Below, piece by piece: positions 3,457 to 14,275 of a stretch of DNA of 64,000 nucleotides (the stretch's first letter is position 1; every line of letters starts with the position of its first letter). The stretch is from NCBI RefSeq assembly GCF_029433105.1, contig NZ_JARNTW010000005.1, positions 129,659 through 193,658 of the forward strand, written 5' to 3'. Position numbers and translations under genes: made by a program. The notes beneath the pieces are model-generated. The model was not told the DNA's origin, searched no databases, and saw only the letters and a list, made by a program, of their open reading frames with translations. The DNA is from Runella sp. MFBS21 (GTDB taxonomy: Bacteria; Bacteroidota; Bacteroidia; Cytophagales; Spirosomataceae).

Positions 3457-5226
3457 ATGGCAGACAATTTTGTGGTATCGGCTCGGAAGTATCGTCCCGT
3501 TACGTTTGATACGGTAGTTGGGCAGTCGCACATTACGACTACTCTCAAAAATGCTATTCGTACCAATCACTTGGCACAGGCGTTTTTGTTTTGTGGACCT
3601 CGCGGTGTGGGGAAAACAACGAATGCTCGTATTCTCGCAAAAACCATTAATTGTCAGCGTCTTACCGATGAGGTAGAGCCTTGCGGAGAGTGTGAGTCGT
3701 GCGTGGCTTTTCAAAACAATGCGTCTTTTAATGTGCATGAACTAGACGCCGCGTCTAACAACTCTGTAGATGATATTCGGAACTTGATTGACCAAGTGCG
3801 CTATCCTCCCCAAACGGGTAAATACAAAATCTACATCATTGACGAGGTGCACATGCTATCGTCGGCGGCTTTCAATGCTTTTCTGAAAACCTTAGAGGAG
3901 CCACCTAGCTATGCCATTTTTATCTTGGCTACGACCGAAAAACACAAGATTTTACCCACGATTTTGTCGCGGTGTCAAATCTTTGATTTTAATCGGATTC
4001 AGCCTAGTGATATTGCCGACCACATCGAACGAATTGCCCAAAAGGAAGGTATCCAAACCGAACGTGAAGCCCTCGAACTAATCGCCCAAAAAGCCGATGG
4101 CGGTTTGCGCGACGCGCTGTCGATGTTTGACCTCAACGTGACTTTTTCGACCGACGGGACGGTGCGGTATCGGGATGTTTTAGAAAATCTCCACATCCTT
4201 GATTATGATTATTACTTTAAGGTAACAGACGCCCTTTTGACAGGAGATTTGTCCCAAACCTTGTTGACTTTCAATGAGATACTCAAAAAAGGTTTTGACG
4301 GGCATTTGTTTGTTATTGGATTGCTTGAGCATTTTAGAAATTTGCTGGTTTCCAAAGACCCCTCAACGGTGCAGTTGTTGGAAGTCTCCGAAACTGCCAA
4401 AAACAAATATTTGGACCAATCGGCCAAAGCCTCTTTGTCGTTTTTATTGTCTGCGTTGAGTATTGGTGGTCAGTGCGACATCAATTATAAAGCCGCCAAG
4501 CAGCAGCGCCTACACGTGGAGCTGTGCTTGATGAAGCTCGCAAAGCTCGCAGATGTCTTGGACTTGGAGGCTATATCCCAAGACGAAAAAAAAAAGCATA
4601 ATATAAGTGCAACTACCTCAGTGACTGTGCCCAATGCCACGGTGACCACCCACGTGAATTTGGCCGGAAATCCAGCGGCTACTAAGCCCATCATGACCAC
4701 GAGCGAGCCTACGGTCAGTTATCAAAATGCGGCTACCGGGACACTCGGCAAACTTCGCTCGACAGTAAATCTCAATGCTACGGCCATAGTAACCCCCGAA
4801 ACAGCCAAAGTAACTACCTCAGTTTCTAAGGAAGCAGAACCTTTAATGAGCTGGACTGACCAGCCTTTTGCGTTCGAACAACTCAAAGAAACCTGGGAGG
4901 CATTTGCACGTTTAAGGGAGACCAAAGGTGGGGGCGTAAGTGAGCAAATCATGCTCAATCGTGAGATTAAGTTTGAAAACATGACGATTGAGTTGATTTT
5001 GGATAATCTTCACCAAGAGACCTTACTCAATGACTTAAAACCTGAGTTGTTGAGTTATCTTCGTCATACCCTCAAAAACCGTCAGATTCAGGTTACGCAC
5101 CGTATCGCGCCCAATGAGGTAAAACGCAACCCTTATACGCCCCTCGAAAAATTCAACGCCTTGGCTGAGCGCAATCCCGCCTTACTAGATTTGCAGCGGT
5201 TGTTGGGATTGGATGTGGATTTTTAG
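3457..5226 (+). CDS. dnaX: DNA polymerase III subunit gamma/tau (DnaX)
   Basis: This is the clamp-loader ATPase of the replicative polymerase. The AAA+ core (about residues 1-370) shows Walker A GPRGVGKTT (47-55), four zinc-binding cysteines (C66, C76, C79, C82), Walker B IIDEVHML and the arginine-finger motif LSRCQIF. Residues about 380-470 are a Thr/Val/Ala-rich linker, and the last 110 residues form a tau-like C-terminal domain. A run of ten A at 4586-4595 followed by G lies exactly at the core/linker junction (codons 377-380) and looks like a frameshift or slippage site giving a short gamma form; see the separate feature. A TAATTTTG box at 3398-3405 may be its promoter. The 589-aa length is normal for a Bacteroidota DnaX. 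Confidence 0.96.
   Translation: MADNFVVSARKYRPVTFDTVVGQSHITTTLKNAIRTNHLAQAFLFCGPRGVGKTTNARILAKTINCQRLTDEVEPCGECESCVAFQNNASFNVHELDAASNNSVDDIRNLIDQVRYPPQTGKYKIYIIDEVHMLSSAAFNAFLKTLEEPPSYAIFILATTEKHKILPTILSRCQIFDFNRIQPSDIADHIERIAQKEGIQTEREALELIAQKADGGLRDALSMFDLNVTFSTDGTVRYRDVLENLHILDYDYYFKVTDALLTGDLSQTLLTFNEILKKGFDGHLFVIGLLEHFRNLLVSKDPSTVQLLEVSETAKNKYLDQSAKASLSFLLSALSIGGQCDINYKAAKQQRLHVELCLMKLAKLADVLDLEAISQDEKKKHNISATTSVTVPNATVTTHVNLAGNPAATKPIMTTSEPTVSYQNAATGTLGKLRSTVNLNATAIVTPETAKVTTSVSKEAEPLMSWTDQPFAFEQLKETWEAFARLRETKGGGVSEQIMLNREIKFENMTIELILDNLHQETLLNDLKPELLSYLRHTLKNRQIQVTHRIAPNEVKRNPYTPLEKFNALAERNPALLDLQRLLGLDVDF
4586..4601 (+). promoter_or_regulatory. Putative dnaX frameshift/slippage site with -1 stop
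   Basis: Ten consecutive A followed by G, read in frame as GAA AAA AAA AAG (codons 377-380). The last seven bases are A AAA AAG, identical to the Escherichia coli dnaX slippery heptamer. After a -1 slip the next codons are GCA TAA, with the stop at 4599-4601, giving a product of about 381 residues that ends after the AAA+ core. RNA polymerase slippage adding one A reaches the same TAA, and loss of one A gives AGC ATA ATA TAA, so every out-of-frame path stops at once. A GGAGG lies at 4566-4570, 15 bases before the A run. I see no strong downstream hairpin. Confidence 0.7.
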
Positions 5227-14225: not shown

Positions 14226-14275
14226 AAGTACTAAAAAAATGAAAAAAAAAGTTTAGAAAGGAATACTCATAAGCG

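Follow-up and report, generated by a model that had tools for sequence, protein, structure and literature searches.

A probable programmed slippage site at the gamma/tau hinge of dnaX in Runella and its relatives

In the window, the whole 64-kb stretch of Runella DNA that was analyzed, the dnaX gene carries a run of ten adenines just past the end of the clamp-loader core, and this run is probably a programmed transcriptional slippage site with RNA polymerase as the main device. Judged from sequence comparison, the most likely arrangement is one gene that makes a long and a short DnaX by polymerase stutter on the run. RNA polymerase slipping on the A10 run would generate dnaX mRNAs with 9, 10, 11, 12, or more adenines; those with 10 or 10+3k adenines would encode full-length tau of 589 aa, and the other run lengths would lead into a stop in the −1 or +1 frame within a few codons, giving a gamma of 380 to 383 aa that consists of the core without the tau tail. 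Slippage by the polymerase rather than the ribosome, a high yield (near 1:1), and a place for gamma in the holoenzyme are inferred; both polymerase and ribosome slippage may be at work. The first-pass annotation had proposed a gamma-like product of about 381 aa and a tau-like product of 589 aa from one recoding site, and had mentioned RNA polymerase slippage of the Thermus type in an aside; our comparisons support both.

Parts of this design are already known: transcriptional slippage in Thermus dnaX, ribosomal frameshifting in Escherichia coli dnaX, and dnaX genes with A10 that are divided over two ORFs. Transcriptional slippage in Thermus thermophilus dnaX was reportedly described by Larsen et al. 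in 2000. According to the accessible parts of PMC5009743 and PMC1088944, the Thermus gene slips at an A9 run, has stops in both off-frames, and makes gamma from length-mixed mRNAs. The window gene is similar in containing a single tau ORF, a run of at least nine adenines after the core and near stops in both off-frames, and presumably also in making gamma from length-shifted mRNAs, but it has A10 where Thermus has A9, it belongs to another phylum, and the only tRNA-Lys found for it reads UUU, whereas Thermus has two lysine tRNAs. The GeneTack survey of 2013 lists 17 dnaX frameshift genes from 12 genera, nine of them with A10, for which polymerase slippage was inferred (PMC3711429, accessible part). 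Like those two-ORF genes, the window gene has A10 at the gamma/tau junction, and the two-ORF layout itself occurs in 59 of its relatives; the window gene is a single ORF, and neither single-ORF members nor drift of the run through the codon phases is described in the accessible part of that survey. An earlier statement that no report was known for this lineage thus has to be narrowed, since the survey predicted two-ORF dnaX genes with A10, in the accessible part without species names. The literature consulted, mostly outside subscription papers and supplements, held no account of the single-ORF members described here, of the breadth of the site, or of its phase drift.

The A10 run and its conservation

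The window gene scores 841.7 bits against the NCBIfam model NF011531 (cut-off 685) and 430.8 bits against TIGR02397 (cut-off 250). The Pfam match to domain III (PF12169) stops at residue 371 and the run opens in codon 377, with positions 4585-4596 reading GAA AAA AAA AAG, which bears out the earlier placement of the site at the end of the clamp-loader core. The A10-G run with its in-frame A_AAA_AAG lies where it had been noted (Table 1). Past the run, the −1 frame reads GCA TAA and the +1 frame AGC ATA ATA TAA, and the predicted products are 381 aa ending in EKKKA with one extra adenine and 382 aa ending in EKKSII with one adenine fewer, in agreement with the prior claim that a one-base insertion or deletion stops translation at once. 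Tau in the window is encoded by one ORF, not by the two-frame layout found in some relatives.

Table 1 Features of the dnaX gene and its hinge in the window
Feature	Position	Strand	Basis
dnaX, DNA polymerase III subunit gamma/tau, 589 aa (tau in frame)	3457..5226	+	ORF, family models
Clamp-loader core (AAA+ and domain III), shared by gamma and tau	3457..4569	+	Pfam matches to residue 371
GGAGG, SD-like; probably outside the signal	4566..4570	+	within the genus in L001 (window) and L085 only
A10 slippage run (probable)	4586..4595	+	sequence; identical place in 13/13 genus genomes
A_AAA_AAG, in-frame −1 heptamer (E. coli dnaX type), 3′ part of A10	4590..4596	+	
TAA, −1 frame stop, predicted product 381 aa	4599..4601	+	−1 stop at this place in 13/13
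TAA, +1 frame stop, predicted product 382 aa	4604..4606	+	equal length in 12/13
Variable linker and tau C-terminal region, missing in predicted gamma	4602..5223	+	ORF; tail frame in relatives via tblastn

Long adenine runs are depleted in the window, where three overlapping nine-A matches occur at two places against 9.66 expected, and at least three such matches were present in 97 of 100 shuffles of the window. The only place besides dnaX is 14242-14250. Uniqueness of A10 in the genome was considered and rejected: the 44 overlapping A10 matches in the whole genome, merged by eye, form 24 separate runs, so that the run is rare and not unique. Nine of the 17 distinct genomic A10 runs inspected sit in some open frame of at least 100 codons.

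The genus was represented by 13 genomes, the window genome among them. A10 followed by G is found at the same codon in all 13, and one added adenine ends the protein at 381 aa in each; in the +1 frame the predicted product is 382 aa long in 12 genomes and 389 aa long in L095. The two in-frame residues after the run differ across the genus (HN, PN, PS, SS, NS), and the −1 frame always reads TAA or TAG. It is hard to explain how the linker after the run can be so variable and yet keep its off-frame stops without selection on the off-frames. The first-pass annotation had pointed to the A run and the nearby off-frame stop in relatives as the comparison to make, and both are kept in 13 of 13 genomes; by this sequence evidence the A10 site in dnaX is no chance feature.

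Beyond the genus, the closest named contig is Dyadobacter L005 at 65% identity, though very near records may be missing from the comparison. NCBI places Dyadobacter in the Spirosomataceae, Cytophagales, and from this placement family f1 is taken to be the Spirosomataceae. We used tblastn to locate the end of the core in 259 loci, along with the tau tail where this could be done. Counted before deduplication, a hinge run of at least nine adenines is present in 13 of 13 loci of the genus, 50 of 60 of the family, 79 of 86 of the order or class, and 64 of 80 from named contigs, together 206 of 239, compared with two of 20 loci from other classes of the phylum. Outside the hinge, the same 206 genes contain four runs of at least nine, all A9, in 397,098 nt. 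By genus, the family has the run in 23 of 28 fetched, an in-frame G_GGA_AAG in three, and neither in two, one of which (L234) has A_AAA_AAG with GGAGG.

For later counts, loci with identical last 300 core bases were counted once, and L217 was removed for its short core. With later additions this gave 365 loci, comprising 245 with the run, 15 with G_GGA_AAG, 11 with UAG, one with A8, and 93 with none, totals that do not reflect natural frequencies since sampling was not random (mostly best-scoring loci, plus targeted relatives of the UAG loci). Hinge run length is bimodal. When the other classes are left out, the longest hinge run in the 346 nonredundant loci is 10 in 190, 9 in 33, and 11 to 13 in 19 (at least nine in 242), it is 8 in a single locus, and it is 7 or less in 103; the run class was defined as at least nine adenines, and the gap at 8 appears without that rule too. 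In a 390-nt core stretch of the same 346 genes, used as a control, no adenine run exceeds seven.

Selection on the run and on the off-frames

Among the 245 nonredundant run loci, the run starts in codon phase 1 in 136, in phase 2 in 69, and in phase 0 in 40. On a FastTree tree of the core proteins, with the hinge left out, run phase changes at least 32 times, compared with 90 to 104 times with shuffled labels. The tau tail, whose tblastn placement underlies our readings of the run loci, is in frame in 169, in the −1 frame in 59, in the +1 frame in three, and unassigned in 14, and its frame changes at least 25 times on the tree (231 loci with an assigned tail) against 49 to 60 times with shuffled labels. 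Lysine codon use was also compared: the codons for KKK at the run are AAA AAA AA(A/G) in 169 of 169 cases, partly by construction, as the run was found by its adenines, and KKK elsewhere in the same genes is coded in this way in six of 41. Selection for poly-lysine at the protein level is rejected by this codon use and by the phase changes on the tree, and the pattern in the sequences indicates selection on the nucleotides of the run rather than on the lysines they encode.

These observations also bear on an account without any recoding, according to which the run merely encodes a lysine-rich hinge and the stops reflect chance or a safeguard against errors. The hinge is indeed lysine-rich, and 33 of the 239 loci have fewer than nine adenines, but the run stays A10 while its phase and its encoded residues change, runs of at least nine hardly occur in the rest of these genes (4, against 206 at the hinge), and tau needs a shift in 59 of the 245 run loci, which makes this account very improbable.

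In those 59 loci, gamma is in frame and tau lies in the −1 frame, a two-frame tau. The two layouts can be found in close relatives. Mucilaginibacter L007 has A10 with tau in frame, and its relative L130, with a core that is 93% identical, has A9, gamma in frame, and tau in the −1 frame. This swap of roles implies that evolution has accepted a change in run length, which would be expected if every frame is supplied at all times, and suggests that slippage is frequent. As a general point, the accessible part of PMC5009743 states, naming dnaX, that when efficiency is near 50% one altered base can be enough to exchange the roles.

The two non-tau frames mostly end at once, whichever frame holds tau, a design with both off-frames closed that is also described for Thermus dnaX in the accessible parts of PMC5009743 and PMC1088944. 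Where tau is in frame (169 loci), a −1 stop lies within five codons in 158 and a +1 stop in 111, compared with means of 62.4 (maximum 76) and 41.9 (maximum 54), respectively, when the downstream codons are shuffled. For the 59 loci that have tau in the −1 frame, an in-frame stop lies within five codons in 55 and a +1 stop in 45, against shuffle means of 15.1 and 27.4. In 70 signal-less control loci, read from a fixed hinge position, a −1 stop is present in 13 (shuffle mean 21.9) and a +1 stop in 20, the latter above the shuffles (mean 11.8, maximum 17) but well below the share found at runs. Selection merely to limit the cost of accidental slippage could also account for stops in both off-frames. 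Gamma might also arise mainly by proteolysis of tau, with the A run secondary, as is known in Caulobacter (PMC5009743, accessible part), but this would leave both the off-frame stops and the relatives with off-frame tau unexplained, and we regard it as highly unlikely.

Polymerase or ribosome

The main competing explanation is a −1 ribosomal frameshift on A_AAA_AAG, in which the UUU-reading tRNA-Lys would slip back and translation would stop at GCA TAA to yield gamma; in two-ORF relatives the same −1 slip would yield tau, and it may add to polymerase slippage. We consider this explanation unlikely, though with more in its favor than either of the preceding two. The window gene resembles E. coli dnaX in its in-frame A_AAA_AAG and in the −1 stop directly after it. 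It differs in its run of 10 rather than six adenines, in also keeping a +1 stop, and in having neither an SD-like element about 10 nt upstream (the spacing is 19 nt in the window) nor a conserved downstream stem-loop. In E. coli, the SD-like stimulator of dnaX stands about 10 nt upstream of the heptamer.

The first-pass annotation had favored an E. coli-type frameshift with GGAGG as stimulator, and this is the part that did not stand. The GGAGG does lie 15 nt before the run, as described, and 19 nt before the heptamer, but a stimulatory role finds no support in relatives: within the genus the motif is limited to the window and its nearest relative L085, and it occurs at −26 to −5 of the run in six of 204 unique hinges compared with 0 to 2 in five stretches further upstream. 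GGAGG was rejected as part of the signal on this count; the frequency is slightly above that upstream, and it may help in a few genes. Bacteroidia ribosomes are reported not to recognize SD sequences (PMC9976891, accessible part), and prfB frameshifting is reported to be inefficient in Flavobacterium johnsoniae (PMC12421855, accessible part).

A conserved downstream hairpin was not found in 202 hinges, in which the 60 nt after the run have a mean folding energy of −10.75 kcal/mol compared with −10.1 to −10.4 kcal/mol in windows placed 80 to 200 nt on. The corresponding 60 nt of the window gene have −12.2 kcal/mol, which is not strong; four other members of the genus (L089, L092, L093, and L096) have strong downstream folds.

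Several features nevertheless fit ribosomal slippage. In addition to the in-frame A_AAA_AAG of the window, all 13 genus genomes have G as the next base after the run, off-frame tau tails lie in the −1 frame in 59 loci against three in +1, and of the two off-frame stops the −1 stop is the tighter. The tRNA complement points the same way. A tRNA search in which 150 of 482 candidates were scored gave 35 matches, of which 31 were read (the 31st lies in the locus of a neighbor), and among these 31 there is one tRNA-Lys, with anticodon UUU, and no second tRNA-Lys of the kind offered for Thermus. The four remaining matches are 82 to 87 nt long, which suggests tRNAs of Leu, Ser, or Tyr size, and a second tRNA-Lys in the genome is unlikely. 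The sole tRNA-Lys of E. coli also reads UUU, and with UUU as the only tRNA-Lys found there is room for ribosomal slippage.

Against this, A_AAA_AAG needs just six adenines, but hinge runs reach nine or more in 242 of 346 loci and stop at eight in one. Any of G, C, and T may follow the run (98, 70, and 36, respectively, of 204 unique hinges), +1 stops are enriched as well as −1 stops, and neither SD nor hairpin is conserved. Furthermore, the hinges that do look ribosomal carry GGAGG 10 nt upstream, as in 16 of 17 with in-frame G_GGA_AAG and in L234 with A_AAA_AAG. The reading of the run as a polymerase slippage site accordingly draws on the length gap at eight, the free phase, the free next base, and the enrichment of +1 stops, and on the lack of a conserved SD and of extra downstream folding.

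Slippage by the polymerase has its own difficulties. The off-frame tails that are nearly all −1 and the tighter −1 stop would be produced likewise by −1 ribosomal slippage; each phase of A10 still holds an A_AAA_AAN for the ribosome, and the genus always has G after the run; and the sole tRNA-Lys found is UUU, as in E. coli and unlike Thermus. Loci without the run also count against it, both the 33 of 239 and the 18 of 20 from other classes, as do 10 of 78 run-less loci with a short in-frame A_AAA_AAN and a −1 stop within five codons.

Other signals at the dnaX hinge

Taken with the run-less loci, the comparison suggests that the dnaX hinge of Bacteroidia may be under lasting selection for gamma and tau with an exchangeable device (slippage, an SD-driven −1 shift, UAG, and possibly a +1 shift), a reading to which we give an even chance. 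If it is true, most of the sampled lineages would use polymerase slippage on A9 to A11 with swapping of which of gamma and tau is in frame; some members of the family would have exchanged the run for an SD-driven −1 shift (GGAGG, 10 nt, then G_GGA_AAG or A_AAA_AAG); one genus, taken to belong to the Bacteroidales, would read through, or restart at, an in-frame UAG that precedes Ile-Ala-Arg; and another might use a +1 shift at CCC AGG, amounting to at least three decoding devices for one protein pair in one class. The importance of gamma has long been disputed in E. coli (PMC5009743, accessible part). The presence of the run in 23 of 28 family genera and 206 of 239 loci, drifting through all frames, argues that both DnaX forms are needed in these bacteria. 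A plain gene call of the run genes shows half of this, tau alone in some and gamma alone in others, and the natural A9/A10 pairs together with the lineages that carry other signals make the need for gamma, and its ratio to tau, directly testable.

The signals other than the run (G_GGA_AAG, UAG, and CCC AGG) are offered as leads to recoding mechanisms. The G_GGA_AAG class was at first defined with GGAGG or GAGGG required upstream; a recount of 365 hinges that dropped this SD condition found 17 in-frame G_GGA_AAG sites, 16 with GGAGG exactly 10 nt upstream. These 16 are 15 loci of genera g2, g29, and g36 plus L043, where the site lies further down, and L419 is the one without GGAGG. The 15 sites belong to family f1 loci that lack a long A run and have G_GGA_AAG as their main signal (L231, L233, L237, L245, L249, L250, L252, L257, L297, L299-L301, and L408-L410). 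In g36 an in-frame TAG directly follows G_GGA_AAG in eight of nine copies, and the tail is in the −1 frame in all seven that could be assigned. Such loci look like SD-driven −1 frameshift sites in a group said not to use SD. L234, of genus g6, has GGAGG, a 10-nt spacing, A_AAA_AAG, and a −1 stop.

Several lineages, namely family f11, part of f117, and genus g7, contain one tau ORF and show no visible signal, and the loci scored as having none include L036, L133, L140, L143, L161, L363-L365, and L097; such lineages either have lost the device or make gamma otherwise.

A different arrangement is found in 11 loci (L043, L063, L080, L332, L362, L367-L371, and L376), in which an in-frame UAG right after the core precedes Ile-Ala-Arg codons that differ by synonymous changes; in 11 of 11 the tau tail continues in this frame. 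They comprise eight genomes of genus g551 (family f117) and the MAG contigs L043, L063, and L080, titled Bacteroidales or Bacteroidetes, and are candidates for stop readthrough or restart. In L080 a neighboring gene, read by eye as dapF, ends in UAG, which makes a reassignment of UAG improbable. A short hairpin that starts 12 to 13 nt after the U of the UAG can be drawn in 10 of 11, with shuffle fractions of 0.04 to 0.6 that are singly unconvincing. Translational bypassing at these loci was rejected, as no matching landing codon was seen by eye.

In L064 an in-frame TAA is present, the tail lies in the +1 frame, and there is neither an A run nor a known heptamer; this single case could be a sequence error. 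Finally, five loci of genus g571 (f117) carry CCC AGG or CCC AGT, and four codons further the +1 frame reaches a stop; L406 has the opposite layout, with gamma in frame and tau in the +1 frame. This group (L383, L386, L387, L411, L412, and L406) is a candidate for +1 frameshifting, and within it L412 alone also has an A run of at least nine.
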